A stretch of DNA of 64,000 nt from Thuidium tamariscinum (taxonomy: Eukaryota > Streptophyta > Bryopsida > Hypnales > Thuidiaceae), in NCBI GenBank assembly GCA_947034885.2, contig OX344753.2, positions 4,278,001 to 4,342,000 of the forward strand. Reading direction: 5' to 3'. Shown one piece after another: positions 5,530 to 63,458 of this stretch. The notes beneath the pieces are model-generated. The model saw only the letters and a list, made by a program, of their open reading frames with translations, was not told the origin of the DNA and did no database searches. The stretch's first letter is position 1. Each line of letters opens with the position of its first letter. The translations under genes and the position numbers were made by a program.

Positions 5530-6263
5530 GGGTGAATGCAAGAAGCACTTGTACTATTTGTTGCGTTTTACTACAGTACTCATGACTTTTTTTGGAGTAC
5601 TTTAAAATTTGAAAAAAAATTTGAAAAAAATTTGAAAAATATGAATAATGTATAGACCTCTAAGATGAAGGTTTTCACCAAAGGAAATTGATAGAAAAAT
5701 TCTCTAAGTAGGAGAATTTAAAAAGTGCCAAACCTCAAGAAAATACATACCTTCATGGTTTAATTCGGGAAAAATAGAAAAAATAAGTAAATACAAAAAA
5801 TGAAAAGTGGCCATTTGCGACAACTCTATGGAGATGGTCATCGACCAAAAAAAACACCAAAATAATCTTTTATATGTTTCAAAATTCAAGCAGAAAGAAG
5901 CTCACTTCGTAGACTTCCACACCACATAAAAATAACTTTTTTCAAAATCCCTCACGTGGAGTGATGTAAAATTACTAGAAGACCATCTCATCCAAATTTC
6001 ATCTCAAAATCATTAAGAAAAGGTACTCCTTAGTACTAAAAACCTCCAAATTGGCATTTGTGACATTTAATCACTAGTACTATTTTAGTATTAAATTATT
6101 TTTGAAAATTATGAAAAAATTATGTAAGGTGTATGATAGTCATGAGTACCTTCTCTAGAAATCTTGAGTCATTTCGAGCAAAAATGAAAAAGTTATGGCC
6201 AAAAAACAGATCAGCATTTAGGTGGTGACGGGTCGAAGGTACAAGTGTTTCTTGCATTTACCC
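5530..6263 (+). mobile_element. Type A/D element, complete
   Basis: It begins GGGTGAATGCAAGAAGCACT and ends GTTTCTTGCATTTACCC, and matches 28432-29164 across its length. The internal sequence is shared with type A copies (the box with CATGACTTTTT and GGAGTACTTTA). Flanks are TTAT and ATAT, so a 4-bp duplication is not exact here. A 61-codon minus-strand frame inside has no support as a gene. Confidence 0.75.
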
Positions 6264-8515: not shown

Positions 8516-8618
8516 CATATTTTTCAAATTGATCAAAAGTTAGTTTCTAGTTTTATAGTGTTCTAAGAAAAATCATGAAAATGCAACAAATAGTACAAGT
8601 GATTCTTGCAATTATCCT
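8516..8618 (+). mobile_element. Type A element, 3' end only
   Basis: It matches the last ~100 bases of the type A copies, ending CAACAAATAGTACAAGTG and then TTCTTGCAATTATCC. It directly abuts the truncated copia gag. Confidence 0.6.
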
Positions 8619-10984: not shown

Positions 10985-13900
10985 ACCTCCACCTTGCTCG
11001 CGCGGTCCGTTCCAGTCGCCTCGCAGGCGCGCAAGCAGGGACAATGAATCAAACGCGCCACATCATTTATTTTGGGCACAGCTTAAACCTTTCTCTGAGG
11101 TAACAAGAGGTTTTCTACACACTCTAGGTAACTTTTATCTCCTCCGTTGGGGAGATCAGGAATGATCTGAACTGAAGAATCATGACAACCATGTGCATCT
11201 AAATCAATATGAATGCTTCCATCGTTCATTTTCGATATTTTCTCAGTTCTCACATTTTCCTGTTTCTACCATTAAACAGAGGAAAGGGAGACTTATGGAC
11301 ATCGACAAGGGAGTTCTAAAAGTTTCCCGTGGAGAACATCAAACTGAGTTTACCGTAGCGATTGAACCATGTAATTGTAAGTGCATGCTAAACCCTGTGT
11401 CATGACCATGCACAACATTTGACAAACTCTTGAAACTCCCTTGTGATCACAGATACATGTCTACATGATACATCATGGAACAAGAGGATTTACACACGCT
11501 CTCGGATACTTTTAGATATTCGATCCTCTTCTTGGGAGATCAGGAGTGATCTGAACTAATTAAAGAATCATGACAACCATGTGCATCTAAATTAATATGA
11601 ATGCTTAGGGTAAACCTGCCATTAACTGGACACATCCAGAAACGGATGCTAGCTCTGCTATGTATCGCACAAGCACTACATCACCATATGCAAATGAAGC
11701 GAGAAATCATACCACCGCGTTGTCTCTGCAAACTGTTCGATAAAGGGTTGCGTTATTTTTCCCAAATGATTTCATTCATGTTGTTTTCAAGTTGCAAGTC
11801 TGCAACAACATCAAGAAGTTAAGAAACCTTTTTTTAAAATTTTTTTTGGAGTCGAGCTGAATGTGGGATTGCCAAATTTCAGAGCTTGCAAGTGCCTATT
11901 GAGTTATAGAGGGATTTGAACTTGCTCTGTGCGGTGATTGGCAAGGTTACTCTACATTCATTTTCGATATTTTATGAGCTCTCACATTTTTTTGTTTTAT
12001 CATTAATGAAAAGAAAGGATACGTGGATGGACATCGACAAGGATGTTTTAAGAATTTCCCATGGAGTACATCGATCAAACGGAGTTTACCAAAGCGATTG
12101 ATCGAACCATTGTAAGTGCTAAACCCCGTTTCGTAACCATGCACAATGGCAAACTCTTGAAACTCCTTGTGATCCCAGATACATCATGGATTTGCTGAAG
12201 AATCAGTACATCATGGACAATTCCCATCGATTGATATCCGATCCATCCAAGGCTCCAGGCCAGGCTCCCGAAAGCAAGATATGAGTTCACTCACTCAATC
12301 CCCTTTCCTGTTGTCATGAGAACAGTTAATATATCACAAGACCGAGAAACATATATTGCAAGTTGAGCTAGATTTTCCTTACAAGATGAAACCTGTGGTA
12401 GACCTGCTCTTCCCTCATGACCATTAAGAACCTCTTATTCTCTAAAGCAGAAACAAATCGCTTCGCTGCCTCTACAACCACATGCCTCTCCTGGTCACTC
12501 ACAGCACGTCGTTCACAAGTCAATACAACCTGTGAGAACTGCGTACAACCTTGCTGTTGCAACACGTACACGCATCGCCGCTGCTTCCAGAGGAACCTCC
12601 GGCCTCGTCGGAACTTGCAACTGGAGGAGGCCGCCTCACTATGATTAGTTTCTTCCGCATCTCCGGATAGTACTGGAATGGAAGTTGATCGCTAGGGGAC
12701 GGGGAGCTGAAGTGGTCTTGGATCTGAGGAGAATGAGCTCGATCGGTTGTCACGGGAATAGAATACAGGTTGCTTGCCACGGGAGAGCTCGTTCAAGATG
12801 TGTAAGTTGCGTTGTGGGTTCAGCTGGCTCTGCATCGTTGCTGGCCGGTGGTCGATGGGAACTTCGTCGATGTCACTGCACTGGAAGATGTAATTTTGGA
12901 CCGAGTCGTGAAGCTCTTGATTCCCTTCATCCTCTATTTCCATGTCTTCTGAGTCATTTCTGCTTGTGGTTCCACCCCAGTTCCGTTAGTCTTTCGATAC
13001 GTCTGTTCTCTATAATACATACAAGCTCTAGCTTGTTAAGAATTCAGGCAACATTCAGGATTCTTCGATGTTCACAATAGAAATTCTTACATGCACACAG
13101 TATAAATTCTTCTAATTATGTTGACAGTGAAAATTGTGACATTGTGACATTGTGGATTCTTCTATGTTCACATCTTACGTACATATGAATGAACATACGT
13201 TCACAACAAGAACAACATCCTGAGTAGCAGAGGAATTGAATCCAACCTTACCCCTAATTCTGAAGACTTATGAACCAAAGCTTCAGACACCCCTAACTCA
13301 CTCAGACAGTTGTGCATGAGTGTTTTTAAGTATGAAGTATCCATTACAATAGAATTCTAAGTATTGAAAAAAGTGACATACACACCTTGTATCGATCGAA
13401 GGTGTGCTCCTCCGGCTCTCTCATAAGGTTGTACGGCAAACTGGCCTTGAGGGACAACTCTGGACCATGTTGGGGAAGAACGTTCCGGTCCATGTCCCGG
13501 TGCAAATTGGGGGTAGTTCCCATCAATGGAACTGCTGCTGATGTTTGAGCCTCAGTGCCATGGCGATGGGATGCTTGTCCTGCATCCATCACTGGCTGGA
13601 GACCATGCTGGAGCTGAGTCTGTACAACTGACAGGGACGGCCCTGACTGGTCGTCTGGGAGAGGTGGATAGCTGGTGCATCGTTTGCCCAGCTGGTCGAA
13701 GAAGTGCACCAGGAAACGGAACTTCCCCACGAGAGTGAACAGCAGCTGGTGGCCTTCGCGGAGATGATTCTCAACGGAGAATTGGCGCCAGCCTCTGCCG
13801 AAGCGCGGCCCTTGGTGGAAGTCTCGTATGATCGTGGTCCAAGTTCGCCCCTCTGGACCCTCGAGCGTTATTCTCTCCTGGAACAGATTCTTGTAACACC

Positions 13901-14895
13901 TTGCGAAGTCCATCGGGATGCTCTTTCAACACAGCAAACAAACGTATGTCATTAATGTTCGCTGACCTGACAGTGTTCAGTTGATCGATCTCGATCAGCA
14001 ATATCTGGAGTTCTGGACAAAAACATTGAACATATATAACATGTCTGAACATGATCTACACTGAATAGTAATGAAGCCCACTTGTTGATACGGCGAGGTA
14101 ATGGCGGCTCTACCCACGCGAATCGAGAAGGAAGCATCTTTTCGATAGTTTCTGTTATCGATGGCAGCTTGCATGTCGGTTTTCCAAAACTCGCCCAACT
14201 TCACTCCGTGCCACAAGATATTACCGTCTTCGTCCACGCTGTGGAAATTAAAACCCGCACTGGTGTTATACATACATACAGAACACCTTGGTGATCGCAG
14301 CCAACCTAGTGCTCAAATTAAAGGCAAGATTTGAAGGGAAATTCTCTTATTGGAGAAGGGAACTCTGTCTTCTCACACAAACAACACAAGACAACATCTG
14401 GCATACTTCAACAGAACGTCTAACACATCTTGGTCTACGAGATAAGCATATTCTTGGGAATACATTAAGTACTCTTTTACTGTGTCCAACATGTGAAGGA
14501 TACATGCAGACAGGAGGTGATGGACACCTAATAAGTTATGGCCGGTATCTAACAGGCCTCTCTCATGTGAATATGTGATGAGAGAATGTAACCCTAAATT
14601 GATATCATCAAGACAGATCTTCACAGTTCACACATGTTAGGGACTTAGGGTAATAGAGCTCTGTAAGTTGGAAAGTCTGTCAGTCTCACTAGTTGATGAA
14701 ACCTACGTTTGCACAAGCTATATATCTACAATTTGTGAGCTCAAATAGCTTGAAAAATAAGGGTGCACGACCAGCCTGAAGCGCAGTACATGCAGTCACA
14801 AACTAAACAGAGCAAAGTCAGCAAAGATCTGCACTAGCTTGCACAGCCTGGGCTCCTAACCTGGTAGAGTTGCGCCGTCGTCCTACAAAGTCCAT
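10985..14895 (-). pseudogene. Two-B3-domain gene, left-arm pseudogene
   Basis: Exons on the minus strand are 14861-14895 (start MDFVGRRRNSTR), 14082-14238, 13384/13386-13922, 12383-12959 and a remnant of exon 5 near 10990-11060. Exons 1-3 are open and encode a complete first B3 domain (DFARCYKNLF, GWRQFSVENHLREGH, FRFLVHFF). Exon 4 has a 4-bp insertion near SRDNR and a net 2-bp insertion ~190 bp later. Together they restore the frame, but the shifted stretch between them contains a stop at the end of a PRPLQLPVP reading. Exon 5 has lost its acceptor and nearly all of the second B3 domain; its remnant runs directly into sequence that lies ~1 kb further on in the right arm. Confidence 0.85.
11105..12240 (-). 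repeat. Expanded, partly duplicated intron 4 in the left copy
   Basis: The intron-4 sequence appears about twice. GAATCATGACAACCATGTG is at 11180 and 11567, GGACATCGACAAGG at 11297 and 12029, and AAACTCTTGAAACTCC at 11425 and 12152. The right-arm intron (59020-59646) has one copy. About 300 bp near 11610-11930, absent from the right arm, separates the halves; I do not recognise it. It holds only short open frames. Confidence 0.6.
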
Positions 14896-18065: not shown

Positions 18066-18327
18066 TTGAGTTATTTGTAAAGTACCCTAAACCGGGGTTT
18101 AAACCCATGAGTTTTGTGAAAAAGCTGGTTGAGTTAGAAAAGTCAAAATAAAAGTGGATATGAAACTTATTTTTCCATCAAAATAGTGCCTAAAAAAGTT
18201 TGGTCCCCACTTTTGAAGTCGTGTGAGATAAGTATTATGCAAAAAAGTTTCACGCTTCAACTATAGTTGCCTTCTCAACTTCAAAAAAAGTCATGCCCAA
18301 AGTGGGGGGACTTTACAAATAACTCAA
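18066..18327. mobile_element. J-type MITE, uninterrupted copy
   Basis: The ends TTGAGTTATTTGTAAAGT and ACTTTACAAATAACTCAA are perfect reverse complements. The interior matches 42312-42871, where an E-type element has inserted. This copy therefore serves as the empty site (GTGCCTAAAAAAGTTTGG). Confidence 0.75.
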
Positions 18328-20139
18328 ATGTAGTTCAAAAAATTTGTTCCAAAAAAAAAAAAAAAATTGAAATCCTCAAAGGAAACTAAAATGAACCTCA
18401 AGGAAAATGTCCCTTGAAAATCAAACATCTCAAAGAATACGTTCCTCTAAAGAAAAAGTTTCTTCAGACATCTTGTTTGAATTTTGTCCATAATTTTTTC
18501 TAGGGGGATTTGAAATCTCAAACAAGCTTTAGAAATGGATACTTTTCTTTGATTCCTATCTTTTCTTTGTTGAAAGTTTTTGAAAAAAGTTGAGCTCCTA
18601 TTCCTAAATGAAGTACAAAATTTGGATTTCTATACAATTTTTTCATTTCTCTTCACTAAAAGTGGTGGCACTCCTTCTCCTTCTAATTTTCAATTTCACA
18701 TATCCACATGCATTGTAAATCCTACTACTCTCCTACTTGTATAAACACCTTCTCATCAAAACTCCTTACTCACCAAATGTCAATGAATGTAGTCATTTAC
18801 AATACAAAGAAATGATTTGGATGGTAGATGGTCATTAGACTATTTTGGGACATATTTTTTCCTCCAAAATTTGGATTAATGTTACAAACCCGTTTGTAAC
18901 AAGTAGACAGTTGTAAGGGTTGAGGTTAGTTGGTCTCTCTTTTGTCTTTAAGAACCATGAGAGGAGGTTTGTTCTTCACTTGACATTTTGCTTAATGAAG
19001 ATGAAATGATTCCAACACAATGTGCACGCCTTGATCTTTATTCTTGTTGTGGATTAAACGTAATTTAGTAAGAGTAATCTGAGCAGAGCATCGACTCCTT
19101 CGTTAAGTCGGTCTGTAACAATTAGTGCTTAAACCAAATTGTAGAAAAAAATATACATATAGTGTGATTTTAAAATGTCTAATAATCATGGTTAAGGTGC
19201 ATTATTTTAATTTAAACTTGATTATTTAATATCTTAATGTATTTGGCTTTTGGACCACTAACAAGTATCCAACATTGTAACTTACAATGACAATGAGCAA
19301 AAAGAAGGGGGGGAAATTCCTCAAGCCAAAAAAATGTAAATTGTGGGTCTCCCAAGGATTGTAGAGCAACCTTTTAGAAGCCTTGTTCTTTATCTAATGC
19401 AAGGACCTACACTTTTGTCTTAATGTAAAAGTTATCAAATTTGTTAAGATTTTATAAGAAAAATAAAACAAAATATAGTTGATAGAGATTAATTTTGTAA
19501 AGAATGAATTTAGTTTAAAAAAATCATAGATTAGTTGATCATTGTCCTCTAAGGGATCTATTAAACAATCCAACTCTCAGGCTTTCTTGACCTAATGGTT
19601 GTTTAGTTTATTATTCCCTTCTTCTTTCTTGGTACCTCTCAACACCAACAAGAAGATTGAGCATTTGTCATCTAGATATGATACTTATTGGACTTTAATA
19701 GATTTTTGTGATCACTCCCCTCCTCCTTGTTTTATAATACATCTTCATGCCAACCGGCCCCCCCTACTACAACCAAAATTTATTTTATTTTTATTTATTT
19801 ATTTTATTTTTAACTGTAACTATGGAAATCTTTTTGGTATGAAGAGGTACTAACAAAGAAGTGATCATAAAGATCTAAATTTCAAAGGAATACCCTCATT
19901 TGATTTCAAAAGAATCCTAATAAGTTATCAATTTCTTTTTAGAATCTACCACAATGTAATAAATGGTACAACAAAATTAATCAAATGACCATGATAATAG
20001 GTTCATCATATTAGGTACTAAAATTTGCTAAAGTTTATAAATTTTGGCCAAAGATTTTAGATGGAATCTTTAAAAAACTATATGCTCAAAAGTTCATAGG
20101 CTCACCCTAATAGGATAGTAACCTTGCAATTTTTGTCAA

Positions 20140-20869: not shown

Positions 20870-23800
20870 TCAACATACATTTCAATACAAAACTCATACA
20901 AATTGCAATATCACATTCATATAGATATTCTTCAAGAATGTGCATTTGCAATTGCCCAAAAAATACATAATACTACTCTACCCTATACAATTTCTACACA
21001 CACTACGATCTAACTAAATTACTATACTCTACTATTTTAATTGCTCTTAAATAATATCAACCTCAAAGACAAATACATGAACGAGTCAAAACAATTGCTA
21101 TAATGGAGCAACTCCTATTTACAATCCAACACCTCCAAAACCATTTTCTACAAATATAATTTTCTTGAATTATCATGTAATTTTCTTGCATCACCAATTG
21201 AAATTTGATTAATTGATTAAAAATATATCAAATGCATGTGAATGAACCACTTATAGTGCATGTGGTGTATTTATGGCCTCATTTTTTTAGTCTCGTTTGT
21301 AGACTACTAGACTTCACTTTAAGATTTCTCAATTTGAAGTACCACAATCCATATCTTAGATGAGGAAGAAGCAAGCAATATCTAAAATGTGATTATGATT
21401 GTTTTATGAATGAATTTTTGATTTAATGCAAGTTTGTATTACCAATTTTTCATTTAAAAAATGTATAATAGATAGTTTTAGATTTTTGTTCATTAATTTT
21501 CTAATTTTGAGTGGCTTAAGGCATTTTCAAACTACTTTATGTCATTTGCATGGGGGGATTCAAGCAATTTTGGGGGGCTTTTGGCTTTCCATTTTTTTAG
21601 CATAAGTTAGTAGACAAATTTTCTCCCTTTCCATATTCTTCAGAATTCCAAGGAGTTTGGAATTTTTTTCCTTCCCAATTTTTTTTAATCTTCAAGCAAT
21701 CATTAGAGGATTTTTTAACCCTCAAAGAAGTCTCTAGAATGGTCTCAATTGACAACCTTAATTGGATTTAAATGCGTACTTCTCAAGGAAGGTACAATTT
21801 TTTTCCCCTATTTCCATCTATTTTTGACATCACAATGTTTACAAAAGTACATAGCTTTTACTTGACAATGGGACACTAGGTACTTCTTGTCATTTAAATC
21901 TTAAGTACATTTAGAGATTATTTTATATGGAAAAGGACAAATTTAGTACAACTAAGTACTAATGGTTCTTCAATCTTTAGTACTATGAACAAACCTTTTT
22001 ATTTTTAAAAGATCATAGGTACTTCATGCTCATGATGTTTACATAATGAAATGCATCTTATTCGACAATAATACATTAAGTACATTTTGTCATTCAAGTC
22101 CTTGGTACTATAAGTAAATTCTTTATTTTGACATATTCATAGGTACTTGATGAAATTCACACAAGGTAGCGACACATATTATGTACTTAGGCTATCATCT
22201 CTAACCTTGAATAAATAGCTTTGCATATCAATCCCTAAAAGCCTCTTTGATGGCCCAAAAATCTTCTAATGTTTGGAAGACTTTTGACTTTGTATTTTGT
22301 TTTGTTTGAGTAGTATACAATTTTTAATCTTTCCGTTTAGTAAAAGCTTCAAGTACTCTTTGTTTTTTATGGGCTGTTTCATTTTAAGGGCACCTTAAGC
22401 CAATTTTGAGTTTGTTTCTTGCTTCCATTGTTACTTGTCTAAATTTTTTTATGTGACATATTATTCTCTTTGATTTTAGTGTTTTCCTTTTTCACATACT
22501 TTACTTTTTTTCTTATAATAAAGTAAAGATTTTGAAAATTTGTCTTTCCTTGCAAATTGTAATTAATGGTATGGAGGCCTAAAATACCATAAATTACAAA
22601 ATTAGGTAATAATAGGGACCATTTAATTGGATGTATACATCAAAATACTTCTCAAAATAAAAACCTTACCTACATGTCATGTACAATTCTCCTCACAAGG
22701 TAATCCCCCTACAAGTGATTCTATCTCCACCCTTTAGTTAGAACCTTAACATATGGGTTAAATGATGGCAATCGATGAAATAAATATTAGAGTAATCTAA
22801 ATAAACTCCTTCCAAGCAATGGTCACTTAATTTCTGCTAACCTGATCAATTTAAATCAATTTGAAAGACACTTTTTTGGTTAAAAATTTTAATTTTTTGA
22901 CATGTCTTGCAATTTAGAAGGCCAAACAGATTATAATTCAATTTAAAAATCTATCTAGTGCAATTCATAGAATTCAACGTTTCCTTTTCAAAATGGTAAA
23001 GCAACTTAAACTCTAACGTTTCTAGCAAAGGATATCAATGGATGAAATATCAACCCCTAAATTAATTTAAAACTTCATCTACCAAATTAAAATTAAAAAA
23101 ACTAATCAAAACAACTTCAAATTTTAAGGTTGAGTTTTTAGTATTGTTAATTAGCTAATTCTAAGACTAAGCCTAATTTGACCTAAAACCAAAGAACTTC
23201 ATCCAAATTAGGACCAAACTTCATCCAACCTTTTCACAATCACAAATAAATTTTTTTTCAGTAAAAATAGGTTTTGAAATCCTCAAAAGATTTCCTAATT
23301 GATTCCTGGTTCAAATTATTCTTCAGTGACTCTTTAAGGATTATTTTTAATTATCTTCTTTTCTAATCTGATTCAACCTTTCTATTCTAAAATTACTATT
23401 GTAAGGATTTTTTATATTTTTAGAATTGAACCAAGCATTTAAAAATTAAAATTTCATCCACCAATTATTTTTTATTCAAATCAAGAAATTAGACTTTTGA
23501 TTTGATCTAAACATTCTTATGCTATTTAGATTTTTTAGATTACCATTTTGATTTTTTTGAATGAAATTTGAAACTTTTCATCCAAATTAACATTCAAAGT
23601 TTGTTCACTTGTGACTTTCTGTTTTTTGGTGAATTTTTAAGTGTAATATATTTTTGGAAACTTCTTAAACTAAAGTAAGATATTCTAAATTCTAATTCCA
23701 AATCTAAAACTTTGACCACAAGGTTTATTTTTAATTGAAAATTTAGCATGTAGAAATCAAAAGAAATTGAGAAGTAAGGTTACTTTAATATACTTCTCCC

Positions 23801-28431: not shown

Positions 28432-29164
28432 GGGTGAATGCAAAAAACACCTGTACTATTTGTTGCATTTTACTATAGTACTCATGACTTTTTCTGGAGT
28501 ACTTTACAATTTGAAAATTAATTTGAAAAAAATTTGAAAAATATGAACAATGTATAGACCTCTAAGATGAAGGTTTTCATCGAAGGAAATTGATACAAAA
28601 ATTCTCTAAGTAGGAGAATTAAAAAAGCGCCAAACCTCAAGAAAATACATATTTTCATGTTTTAATTTGAAAAAAATAGTAAAAATAAGTAAATTCAAAA
28701 AATAAAAAGTGGCCATTTGCAAAAATTCTATGGAGATGGTCATTCACCAAAAAAAATACCAAAATAATGTTTTATATATTTCAAAATTCAAGCAAAAAGA
28801 AGCTCACTTTGTAGACTTCTACACCACACAAAAATAACTTTTTTCAAAATTCCTCATGTGGAGAGATGTAAATCTACTAGAAGACCATTTCATCCAAATT
28901 TCATCTCAAAATCATTAAAAAAAGGTACTCCTTAGTACTAAAAACCTCCAAATTCTCATTTGTGACATTTAATCACTAGTATTATTTTAGTATTAAAATA
29001 TTTTTGAAAATTATGAAAAAATTATGTAAGATGTATGATAGACATGAGTACCTTCTCTAGAAATCTTGAGTCATTTCGAGCAAAAATGCAAAAGTTATGG
29101 CCAAAAAACAGATCAGCACTTAGTTTGTGACGGAAAATAGTACAAGTGTTTCTTGCATTCACCC
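28432..29164 (+). mobile_element. Type A/D element, complete, 4-bp TSD ACTT
   Basis: It starts GGGTGAATGCAAAAAACACC and ends GTTTCTTGCATTCACCC. ACTT is repeated at 28428-28431 and 29165-29168. It matches 5530-6263 closely throughout. Confidence 0.85.
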
Positions 29165-42311: not shown

Positions 42312-42871
42312 TTGAGTTATTTGTAAAGTACACTAAACCGTTGTTTAAACCCATGAGTTTTGTGAAAAATCCGGTTGAGTTAAAAAAAGTCAAAATAAAA
42401 GTGGGTATAAAACTTATTTTTCCATCAAAATGGTGCCTAACATAAGAAGATTTCTGGGCCCCCAGGAGACCGTTTCAGGGGTGTTCCCCGAAATTGTTCC
42501 CACTGCTGCAAACCAGCACCCTGCTGGTCTGAATTTTTGAATTTTGAAAAAAAAAATTAAATTTTTTTTTTTCAAAATATTTAATATTTAATTAAAATTA
42601 ATAAAAAATTATTATCTTCTGACGTGGCAGTCGCTCGACCACATCAACATCGTGTTCCTAGAGTTCCCAATGCGTTCCCAGCGTCTGGGAACTCGCAGTC
42701 TCTTACGGCAGTTGAAAATCCTCTTATGAAAAGTTTGGTCCCCACTTTTATTCTTTTAAAGTCGTGTGACATAAGTATCTTGCAAAAAAGTTTGACGCTT
42801 CAACTATAGTTGCCTTTTCAACTTCAAAAAAAGTCATGCCTTAAGTGGGGGGGACTTTTTAAATAACTCAA
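42312..42871. mobile_element. J-type MITE interrupted by an E element
   Basis: The ends TTGAGTTATTTGTAAAGT and TTTTTAAATAACTCAA match the intact copy at 18066-18327. The insertion at 42441-42728 accounts for its extra length. Confidence 0.75.
42441..42728 (+). mobile_element. E-family element, copy 1 (no TSD, subterminal hairpin)
   Basis: The 288-bp insert starts CATAAGAAGATTTCTGGG and ends GAAAATCCTCTTATG. The flanks CCTAA and AAAAGTTTGG rejoin to give exactly the uninterrupted J sequence at ~18190 (six A's), so no target duplication is visible. GTTCCCAGCGTCTGGGAAC at 42674-42692 forms a 7-bp stem ending 36 bp from the right end. A short frame starting MAVARPHQHR recurs in copy 2, but only because the DNA is conserved. 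Confidence 0.8.
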
Positions 42872-47463: not shown

Positions 47464-47828
47464 CATAAGAGGATTTTCAGCTATTGTACAAGACTGCGAG
47501 TTCCCAAACGCTGGGAACGCATTGGGAACTCTGGGAACGCAATGCTGATGTGGTCGAGCGACTGCCACGTCAGAAAATACTAATTTTTTTATTAATTTTA
47601 ATTAAATATTAAATATTTTTAAAATATTTTTTTGAAAAAAAAATTATTTTTTAAAATCAGTTTTTTGCTCTTTAGTACATTCTGAAGTTTTTTGGAAAAA
47701 GAAAATTTTAATTTTTTTTTTTCAAAATTCAAAAATTCAGACCAGTAGGGGGCTGGTCTGCAACAGTGGGAACAATTTCGGGGAACACCCCTGAAACGGT
47801 CTTCTAGGGGCCCAGAAATCCTCTTATG
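47464..47828 (-). mobile_element. E-family element, copy 2
   Basis: In reverse orientation it starts CATAAGAGGATTTCTGGGCC and ends GAAAATCCTCTTATG. GTTCCCAAACGCTGGGAAC at 47500-47518 is the family hairpin, again 36 bp from the end. It is longer than copy 1 (365 bp) because of extra AT-rich sequence in the middle. Flanks AAAA and AAAT leave a short A-rich duplication possible. Confidence 0.8.
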
Positions 47829-56477: not shown

Positions 56478-59400
56478 ATGGACCCTGCACAACTGCGACA
56501 CAACTCTATCTGGTAAGGAGCCCAGGCTATGCAACTGCAGATCTTTGCTGACTTTGCTCTGTGTAGTTTGCGACTGTACTGCAATGCAGGCTGGTTGTAC
56601 ACCCTCGTTTTTCAAGCTATTCAAGCTCTTTGTGCTCACAAATTGTAGATATATAGCTTGTGCAAACCTAGGTTTCATCAACTAGTGAGACTGACAGACT
56701 TTCCAACTTACAGAGCTCTATTACCCTAACATGCGTGAAGATCTGTCTTGATGACATCAATTTAGGGTTACATTCTCTCATCACATATTCACATGAGAGA
56801 GGCCTGTTAGATACCGGCCATAATTTATTAGGAGTCCATCGTCTCCTGTCTGCTTGTATCTTTCACGTGTTGGACGCAGTAAAAGAGTACTTACAGTATT
56901 CCCAAGAATATGCTTATCTCGTGGACCAAGGTCTGTTAGACGTTCTGTTGAAGCATGCTAGATGTTGTCTTGTTGTGTTGTTTGTGTGAGAAGACAGCAT
57001 CTCCTTCTCCAATAAGAGAATTTCCCTTCAAATCTTGCCATTAATTTGAGCAATAGGTTGGCTGCGATCACCAAGGTGTTCTGCATGTATGTATAACACC
57101 AGTGCGGATTTAATTTCCACAGCATAGACGAAGACGGTAATATCTTGTGGGACGGAGTGAAGCTGGGCGAGTTTTGGAAAACCGAAATGCAAGTTGCCAT
57201 CGACACCAGAAACCGTCGAAAAGATGCTTCCTTCTCGATTCGCGTGGGGAAAGCCGCCATTACCTCGCCGTATCAACAAGTAGGCTTCATTACTATTGAG
57301 TGTAGATCGATGTTTATGTTCAGACGTGTTATATTTGTTCACTGTTTCTCGTCCAGATATTGTTGAGATCAACTGAACACTCTCACGTCAGCGAACATTA
57401 ATGACATACGTTTGTTTGTTGTGGGGAAAGACCATCCCGGTGGACTTCGCAAGGTGTTACAAGAATCTGTTCCAGGAGAGAATAACGCTCGAGGGTCCAA
57501 CCGGGCGAACTTGGACCACGATCATACGAGACTTCCAACCAGGACCGCGCTTCGGCAGAGGCTGGCGCCAATTCTCCGTTGAGAATCATCTCCGCGAAGG
57601 CCACCAGCTGCTGTTCACTCTCGTGGGGAAGTTCCGTTTCCTGGTGCACTTCTTCGACCAGCTGGGCAAACGATGCACCAGCTACCCACCTCTCCCAGTC
57701 GTCCAGTCAGGACCGTCCCTGTCAGTTGCACAGACTCAGCTCCAGCATGGTCTCCAGCCAGTGATGGATGCAGGACAAGCATCCCATCGCCATGGCAGTG
57801 AGGCTCAAACATCAGCAGCAGTTCCATTGATGGGAACCACATCAGCAGCAGTCCCTCCAAATTTCAACCGGGACAATGTCATTCTTCGCCAGTATGGACC
57901 AGAATTACCCCCGGAGACCAGTTTGCCGTACGACCATATGAGACACTTGGAGAAGCACACCTCCGATGCCGGGTATTAAGAAACTTATATCTGCGACTTT
58001 TGAGTGGATTTAAAACAAAATCTTGAGTGTGTAGTTTGTCACATTTTTCAATACTTAGGATTCTATTGTAATGGATACTTAAAAACACTCATGCACAACT
58101 GTCTGAGTGAGTTAGGGGTGTCTGAAGCTTTGGTTCATAAGTCTTCAGAATTAGGGGTAAGGTTGGATTCAATTCCTCTGCTACTCAGGATGTTGTTCTT
58201 GTTGTGAACGTATGTTCATTCATATGTACGTAAGATGTGAACATAGAAGAATCCACAATGTGACAATGTCACAATTTTCACTGTCAACATAATTAGAAGA
58301 ATTTATACTGTGTGCATGTAAGAATTTCTATTGTGAACATCGAAGAATCCTGAATGTTGCCTGAATTCTTAACGAGCTAGAGCTTGTATGTATTATAGAG
58401 AACAGACGTATCGAAAGACTAACGGAACTGGGGTGGAACCACGAGCAGAAATGACTCAGAGGACATGGAAATAGAGGATGAAGGGAATCAAGAGCTTCAC
58501 GACTCGGTCCAAAATTACATCTTCCAGTGCACTGACATCGACGAAGTTCCCGTCGACCACCCGCCAGCAACGATGCAGAGCCAACTGAACCCACAGCGCA
58601 ACATACACACCTTGAACGAGCTCTCCCGCGGCAAGCAACCTGTATTCTATTCCCCTGACAACCGAGCTCATTCTCCTCAGATCCAAGACCACTTCAGCTC
58701 CCCGTCCCCTAGCAATCAACTTCCATTCCACTACTATCCGGAGATGCGGAAGAAATCAGTCACAGTGAGGCGTCCTCCTCCAGTTGCAAGTTTCCACGAG
58801 GGCGGAGGTTCCTCCGGAAGCAGCCGAGCGATGCGCGTGTTGCAACAGCAAGGCTGTACGCGGTTCTCACAGGTTGTGTTGAATTGTGAACGACGTGCCG
58901 TGAGTGACCTGGAGAGGCGTGTGGTTGTAGAGGCAGCGAAGCGATTTGTTTCCGCGTTGGAGGATAAGAGGTTCTTGGTGATGATGAGAGAAGAGCAGGT
59001 CTACCACAGGTTTCATCTTGTAAGGAAAATCTAGCTCAACTTGCAATATATGTTTCTCGGTCTTGTGATGCATTAATTGTTCTCATGAAAACAGGAAAGG
59101 GATTGAGTGAGTGAAATCATATGTTACTTTCGGGAGCCTAGCCAGCCTTGAATGGGTATCATTCGATAGGAATTGTCCATGATGTCCTGAATCTTTAGCG
59201 AATCCATGATATATCTGTGATTACAAGGGAGTTTCAAGAGTTTGCCATTGTGCATGGTCATGCATGCATGACATGGGGTTTAGCACTTAAAGTTACATGG
59301 TTCAATCGCTACGGTGAACTCAGTTTGACTCCACGGGAAACTCTCTAAACTCCCTTTCTTTTCGTTCCATTATAAAACAGAAAAATGTGAGAACTGAGAA

Positions 59401-62415: not shown

Positions 62416-63458
62416 GGTGATTGCAAGAAACACTTGTGCTATTTTGCATCACACGTTACATAGTCAGTCAATCACTAATCTATTTTTTGGCCATAACTTT
62501 TGTGTTTTGGCTCCAATTGACTTAAGATTTGTAGGGAAGGTGATCATGACTTTCATAAACCTTTTCTAATTTTTTCATAGTTTTCAAAAATAATTTACTA
62601 TCCAAAAATAGCCCCTTATTGAATGTCACACTTTGCACTTTAGGAGTTTTTAGTATTAAAGAGTACCTTTTTTTTAATGATGTTGAGATGAAATTTTGAT
62701 GAGATGGTGTTCTAATAGAGTTGTAGTTCTTCAAGGAATTTTTTTTAAAGATAGTTAATTTTATATGGTGTAAAGGCTACAAAGTGAAATGAAGTAGTGA
62801 ACTTTTTTTTGCTTATATTTTAAAACATATGAAATATTATTTTGGTGGATTTTTTGTGAACGACCATTTCTATAGAGCTATTGCAAATACCTAGTTTTTA
62901 TTTTTTGTAATAATTTTTTATTTTTACTATTTTTCCCTAATTAAAAGATGAAAGATTGAAAGTATGTATTTTCTTAAGACTTAGTACTTTTTAAATTCTC
63001 TTATTTAGAAAAATTTTCTATAGAATTATTTCATTGAATACCTTTGTTTTGAAGGTGTAGACATTAGTCATATTTTTCAAGTTTAAAAAATAATAATTTT
63101 CTAATTTTAAAGTACTCCCAAAATATTCATGAAAACGCAACAAATAGTACCATTAGGTGAAATCTGAAGGCATTACAGGGCTGTTTTGGGTATATTCCCG
63201 AAACGGCTCCCAATGCCACTAACTGCTATCAAGCTGACTTTTATCAAAAAATAAATAAATAAAAAATTGGCGGGGGGTCCTGAAATATGAAAATAAGTTC
63301 AAAAAAAATTTGAAAAAAAATAAATTATTACATGGCAGTGTCCTGACCACATAGGATTCAAGTTCAATGGGCAGAAATTGTGTTCCCGTAGTCCGGGAAC
63401 CTGCAGTCTTCTAATGCCCTCAAATTTCATCTAATGAAGTGTTTCTTGCAATCACCCC
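62416..63458 (+). mobile_element. Type A element, 4-bp TSD TCAA, carrying an E insert
   Basis: It starts GGTGATTGCAAGAAACACTT and ends AAGTGTTTCTTGCAATCACCC. TCAA flanks it at 62412-62415 and 63459-63462. Removing the E element at 63151-63436 leaves ~757 bp, the normal size. Confidence 0.8.
63151..63436 (+). mobile_element. E-family element, copy 3 (diverged)
   Basis: The 286-bp insert starts CATTAGGTGAAATCTGAAGG and its reverse complement starts CATTAGATGAAATTTGAGGG. Flanking bases AATAGTAC and AAGTGTTTC rejoin to the normal type A end with nothing duplicated. GTTCCCGTAGTCCGGGAAC at 63382-63400 is the family hairpin with a changed base pair (A-T to G-C), 36 bp from the end. GGCAGTGTCCTGACCACAT parallels copy 1. 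Confidence 0.8.

Follow-up and report, generated by a model that had tools for sequence, protein, structure and literature searches.

What class of element accounts for three short inverted-repeat insertions around which no base of the target was duplicated? They lie in the window, by which we mean the whole 64,000-nucleotide stretch of DNA that was analyzed (C5:4278001-4342000 in a 363-Mb plant assembly of 19 contigs). An initial annotation described the three elements (here, E elements) and stated that they do not fit a standard plant class. When we re-examined the window sequence, all three were real, with the coordinates and ends that it had given, and its statement about class is supported by many more copies that have real inverted ends and no duplication. 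It overlooked a fourth, more distant relative. The relevant features of the window are:

42441-42728, forward strand: E copy 1, CATAAG-type, 288 bp, non-coding
42441-42453, forward strand: 5' terminal inverted repeat of copy 1, CATAAGAAGATTT (family form CATAAGAGGATTT)
42470-42496, forward strand: 5' subterminal inverted repeat a of copy 1, CCGTTTC.GGGG / CCCC.GAAA
42512-42528, forward strand: 5' subterminal inverted repeat b of copy 1, ACCAGCA-CCC-TGCTGGT
42620-42646, forward strand: inverted repeat c of copy 1 (the box of the initial annotation), TGACGTGG..CCACATCA
42674-42692, forward strand: 3' subterminal inverted repeat d of copy 1, GTTCCC-N7-GGGAAC, edge 36 bp from the terminus
42716-42728, forward strand: 3' terminal inverted repeat of copy 1, AAATCCTCTTATG
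47464-47828, reverse strand: E copy 2, CATAAG-type, 365 bp, orientation opposite to copy 1
63151-63436, forward strand: E copy 3, CATTAG-type, 286 bp, imperfect 25-bp terminal inverted repeat
21701-22271, strand not given: fourth, more distant E relative, 571 bp, ends CATTAGAGGATTTTT..AAAAATCTTCTAATG
18066-18346, forward strand: J repeat copy, the empty site for E copy 1, junction between 18193 and 18194
5546-5558, reverse strand: type-A repeat end AATAGTACAAGTG, the empty site for E copy 3 (also exact at 8589-8601 and 29136-29148)

Copies 1 and 2, in their opposite orientations, are 91-92% identical in two blocks, and copy 3 is a diverged relative of both. The fourth relative has flanks caat/../tttg (in flanking sequence, a slash marks the junction), with no duplication of 2 bp or more; inside it are many AGTACTT-like repeats. 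The window also contains two closely similar B3-domain ORFs (13344-13925 on the reverse strand and 57377-57979 on the forward strand), and a B3 DNA-binding domain was matched by two of the three window ORFs that were scanned. Since this domain is specific to plants, we take the host to be a plant.

The three window elements are part of a large, real group of MITE-like elements in this plant, with inverted repeats and zero duplication. The exact 13-mer CATAAGAGGATTT occurs 3,349 times in the genome (1,688 + 1,661), versus 18 times (7 + 11) for the reversed control. Among the first 100 of these exact termini to be listed, we counted 35 facing pairs and 30 ends without an exact partner nearby; scaled up, this proportion suggests that the genome contains about 2,200 CATAAG-type elements in which one end or both are exact. 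With copy 1 as the query, a search gave 2,240 candidates, and 40 of these were scored (at least 91 matches). From these 40 places and window copies 2 and 3, we delimited 40 CATAAG-type elements (one at each of 39 places, and window copy 2), which include window copies 1 and 2. All 40 have CATAAG..CTTATG ends and are 277-404 bp long; L019 and window copy 3 are outside the end pattern that was used for delimiting them. The search with copy 3 gave 2,081 candidates, of which 40 were scored and 30 of those places were examined as loci. CATTAG-type ends were delimited in all 30 loci, window copy 3 among them. Copies of both types have 5'-CA..TG-3' termini, except for one changed last base (in L058, of the CATTAG-type).

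Using profiles and a relaxed end scan of flanking sequence, we identified further relatives: L005, L007, L016, L044, L048, L058, L006, and the element at 21701-22271 of the window. None of these eight has a flank match of 2 bp or more. L006 (652-2921) is non-coding and has a net length of 1.93 kb; its ends (CATTAGAGGGGATTTGAGG) are intermediate, and a CATAAG-type copy is nested inside it. Within the CATAAG-type, the closest pair diverges by 0.55% and the median divergence from the nearest neighbor is 5.4%, in a sample that was mostly picked by similarity to copy 1. Such low divergence suggests that E elements may have been active fairly recently.

E elements have most of the generic features of MITEs: they are short and non-coding, with inverted ends and many dispersed copies. 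The other generic feature, a short flanking target duplication, is not regularly present at 87 insertion sites, at 30 pairs of ends on contig C1, or at empty sites. The 87 deduplicated insertions are 57 of the CATAAG-type (the 40 above and 17 further copies) and 30 of the CATTAG-type; we left out L102, L108, L118, and L119, which have an uncertain end, and L113 and L120, which are the same host insertion. For the first 40 copies, we computed the expected number of flank matches from mispaired flanks, and there was no regular duplication (three 2-bp matches vs. 3.3 expected, and three 3-bp matches vs. 0.8 expected). Nor was there any across the 87 sites, with four 2-bp matches (6.3 expected), one 4-bp match (0.6 expected), and none of 5-8 bp. 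Matches of 3 bp were above chance, yet they were found at only 5 of the 87 sites (1.7 expected). As a replication set we used 30 exact pairs on C1, out of 34 that had not been used before, with L133 and L163 (the same host insertion) counted in. Again there was no regular duplication (2-bp matches, 3 vs. 2.5 expected; 3-bp matches, 1 vs. 1.1 expected). Five of the E copies on C1 (L106, L113, L120, L133, and L163) have near-identical host flanks (..gtgttgtct/../tcactt.ttacc) and seem to ride inside a larger host repeat.

Two elements can be compared with uninterrupted host sequence from the window itself, as the initial annotation had noted. At E copy 1, the filled site reads gcctaa/aaaagtttgg and the J copy reads gcctaaaaaagtttgg, which is of equal length. 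It had been suggested that this A run could hide a duplication. L058 contains another J-like copy, with one additional A; since neither J-like copy is shorter than the filled site, there is no sign of a hidden duplication. The filled site of copy 3, compared with the type-A ends, is AATAGTAC/AAGTG. In the window, the type-A end AATAGTACAAGTG has three exact occurrences; if one mismatch is allowed, the number rises to 11 (0.15 expected). For copy 2, an empty site was found, but it aligned weakly.

We then compared the joined flanks of 89 copies to all of the sequence that we had collected, and considered an alignment to be good if it had at least 75% identity over about 24 columns. (These empty sites are paralogous related repeats, not alleles.) A junction-spanning match was found for 26 of the 89 copies, and in 22 of these the best local alignment was good. 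In 20 of the 22, with hits picked by local identity, there was no indel at the junction: 17 had no indel at all and 3 had indels away from the junction. The other two had one extra base (L036) or one base fewer (L111) at the junction. Because picking hits by local identity favors ungapped alignments, we recounted with the hit of highest overall score. This gave 19 good alignments for the 26 copies, and in 18 of the 19 no indel lay 3 columns or closer to the junction (L111 differed, with one base fewer). Across all 73 good hits, 68 had no indel near the junction, 1 had a longer filled site, and 4 had a shorter one. In L054, a CATTAG element is nested in a CATAAG element, and the host sequence rejoins without a gap (locally, the best-scoring hit has 71% identity). 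As a positive control, the same approach recovers the 3-bp TAA duplication of a 387-bp insert in the E copy L019 (offsets 156-543). Compared with uninterrupted E copies, the insert adds 3 bases against both L010 and L014, and the alignment to L025 is less clean. The TAA duplication suggests that this insert is Harbinger-like. In the E elements themselves, we did not find the 3-bp TWA duplication of PIF/Harbinger, either at the 87 sites or at the empty sites. The claim that no base is duplicated on insertion is thus borne out by the 87 sites, the 30 C1 pairs, and the related empty sites; with genomic copies collected and their flanks aligned to empty sites, there is no regular short duplication at most insertions.

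The target is symmetric about the junction. Across 115 pooled sites (leaving out L133 and L163, the same host insertion), A is present at -3 in 58 and T is present at +3 in 59. The A/T bias is weaker at -2/+2 (p = 0.011), and there is none at -1/+1. With the two sides combined, distance 3 gives p = 5.7e-9, which is uncorrected for ten distances and, like the other symmetry statistics, treats the two sides of one site as independent. The C1 pairs were read in chromosome orientation instead of element orientation, which is immaterial to a symmetric test. Because the bias towards A or T (W) at ±3 initially came to light in the first 40 copies, it is the 75 later sites that offer a fair test, and there it replicates (121/150 vs. 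97.5 expected, p = 1.9e-5). The more specific form, A at -3 plus T at +3, was chosen after a pooled look at the 115 sites; it gives 35/80 in the first 40 sites (26.1 expected, p = 0.025) and 82/150 in the later 75 (48.8 expected, p = 1.8e-8), with p ≤ 0.01 in each of three later subsets. A scan for the symmetry axis peaks at zero shift among shifts with at least 6 columns (r = 0.54), only modestly ahead of -1 (r = 0.47) and +3 (r = 0.46); a shift of -5 gives 0.71 on three columns. Symmetry favors double-strand insertion that is itself symmetric, and an axis centered on the junction would be expected if a symmetric complex inserted the element with zero stagger, so it suggests such a mechanism.

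The two families also share subterminal inverted repeats. They align along about 110 bp at each end, and repeats a (5', CCGTTTCGGG/CCCGAAACGG), c (ACGTGG/CCACGT), and d (GTTCCC/GGGAAC) are common to both, while repeat b pairs in the CATAAG-type but not in the CATTAG-type. Repeat a is better preserved in the CATTAG-type; it is partly decayed in the CATAAG-type, where its three inner pairs are intact in 0, 15, and 1 of 50 copies. In each of repeats a, c, and d, there is one pair at which the families differ by a two-sided change that preserves pairing. With two families to compare, each of these is in essence a single change, and in the CATAAG-type repeat a has lost pairing at several positions, so the paired changes do not separate nucleic-acid structure from protein-binding sites. 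GTTCCC/GGGAAC is present 4.8 times per CATAAG-type copy and 2.0 times per CATTAG-type copy, versus 0.06 in shuffles, and all but one of the occurrences are within about 120 bp of an end. Most likely, the subterminal inverted repeats are putative binding sites for a transposase. This arrangement alters the picture in the initial annotation, which had described a GGCAGT..GACCACAT box and a hairpin that ends exactly 36 bp from one terminus. The box is present, but it is itself an inverted repeat, with more inverted repeats near the other end. Several subterminal inverted repeats lie at the two ends, and the hairpin, rather than being a single asymmetric feature, is one of them. The commonest distance of its edge from the end is 36 bp, but this distance is not exact: it was found in 37 of 59 copies of the CATAAG-type (with no hairpin scored in 6) and in 14 of 30 copies of the CATTAG-type (with none scored in 3).

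We propose that E elements are non-autonomous inverted-repeat MITEs that are moved in trans by a cut-and-paste transposase, probably of the DDE type, with zero-stagger joining. We give this a probability of about 0.7. The enzyme would bind the subterminal repeats and join both transposon ends to directly opposite target phosphates; because there would be no stagger in the target, nothing would be duplicated. Zero-duplication insertion by thousands of short elements is very unusual, and it points to an enzyme that cuts bluntly. The most likely reading is that these are a zero-duplication plant variant of cut-and-paste transposons, with a blunt-inserting DDE transposase.

The initial annotation had proposed looking for a longer relative that encodes a transposase, and among the E relatives that we examined, none was coding. 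The longest, L006, has no stop-to-stop frame above 77 amino acids. We also examined 20 of the 30 single exact ends among the first 100 listed termini. In 16 cases, a partner end with one error lies at MITE distance; the remaining 4 (L102, L108, L118, and L119) also look MITE-sized, with one end damaged or lost.

It is possible, though on balance unlikely, that E elements are non-autonomous members of the CMCT lineage (CACTA/EnSpm, Transib, Plavaka, Lanisha, and kin) that have lost the usual staggered cut. The multiple GTTCCC motifs recall the subterminal repeats of CACTA elements. Also, all 150 of the Transposase_21 candidates that were scored (of 627) match in the genome. (Many of these at least 150 strong CACTA matches have open frames of about 500 amino acids or more.) However, C1:0-11.33 Mb has 7 listed hits to Transposase_21, and no exact E terminus was within 15 kb of any of them; nor were paired E termini within 1.5 kb of a hit at the 30 loci examined, with 150 of the 627 candidates scored. 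As described in PMC12730594, CA..TG termini are common to most CMCT lineages, including CACTA/EnSpm and Lanisha, and E elements share them; but CMCT elements make 2-5 bp duplications, and no regular duplication is found in E elements. For this reason we do not file them under CMCT.

Spy elements, of the PHIS superfamily, are reported to insert within AAATTT by non-staggered cuts and without duplication (PMC4482050, PMC11304231). The initial annotation named both Spy and IS3EU as parallels. The Spy parallel is apt: like Spy, E elements end in terminal inverted repeats, insert with zero duplication, and have a symmetric A..T target, and the non-staggered insertion that we propose for them is also how insertion by Spy has been interpreted (PMC11304231). 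The IS3EU parallel is wrong for the families covered in PMC12730594, whose target duplications are 6 bp long. (Among PHIS relatives taken together, duplications measure 0-4 bp; PMC10045372.) Nevertheless, we doubt that E elements are plant members of Spy itself. Across the 115 pooled sites, we did not find the strong AAA/TTT preference of Spy: the E target is far looser, with the bias mainly at -3/+3 (A at -3 in barely half of the sites). Also, the host is a plant, whereas the host groups that these sources name for Spy are animals, and the ends are CATAAG or CATTAG. Since the strict motif fails and the enzyme is only putative, we do not file E elements as Spy. The comparison suggests an insertion mode like that of the animal Spy transposons, with a looser target; membership in Spy is a separate matter.

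Rolling-circle elements (Helitron- or Helentron-like, with an HUH enzyme) or site-specific recombinase elements would also account for the lack of duplication, and there are hairpin-forming repeats near an end. Helitrons also have a hairpin near an end, and they insert between A and T and lack terminal inverted repeats of this kind. In contrast, E elements have good inverted ends of 13-25 bp at both termini, and their junctions have no fixed dinucleotide (AT at only 13 of 87, TT at 10 of 87). A symmetric target would be unexpected for a one-ended mechanism. We dropped the hairpin as evidence for rolling-circle transposition: subterminal inverted repeats occur near both ends, and three of the four are common to both families, so the hairpin does not speak for a Helitron-like route in particular. 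Overall, we consider these explanations very improbable. A one-base duplication at most insertions is harder still to credit, and we rejected it together with a same-base preference: the -1 and +1 bases agree at 45 of 87 sites (about 28 expected from the identity of neighboring bases, p = 1.6e-4), but this did not replicate in the C1 pairs (12/30, p = 0.24, with two of the pairs being copies of one host insertion), and where these bases agree and a good empty site is available (12 cases), the junction is always free of gaps.

If E elements are moved by a zero-stagger transposase, then they may represent a hitherto undescribed lineage of plant cut-and-paste transposons outside Spy, with several MITE subfamilies and thousands of copies per genome, that has been missed by duplication-based annotation. 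We hold this broader view tentatively, at somewhat less than even odds. In the open-access sources that we consulted, we found no description of zero-duplication inverted-repeat elements in plants, and zero-duplication eukaryotic DDE elements are represented there by Spy, with animals as the named hosts. Both the classification of DNA transposons and the detection of MITEs make use of the length of the target duplication. A survey from 2025, which covered the MITEs of 207 plant genomes, included a MITE Tracker step that required a duplication of at least 2 bp, and it classed MITEs mainly into five superfamilies by their ends and duplications (PMC12550479). Therefore elements like these would tend to be missed or misfiled, and many of them are probably hidden from software that seeks duplications. 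If our reading is true, an abundant zero-duplication group in plants would expose a blind spot in the annotation of plant repeats, and would show that blunt integration either arose or persisted beyond the Spy lineage described so far. This raises a testable question: which feature of the transposase sets the stagger to zero? Compared with the known superfamilies of plant MITEs, which are classed by their inverted ends and their duplications (PMC12550479), E elements are likewise short, non-coding, and of high copy number, with inverted ends, but they insert without a duplication.
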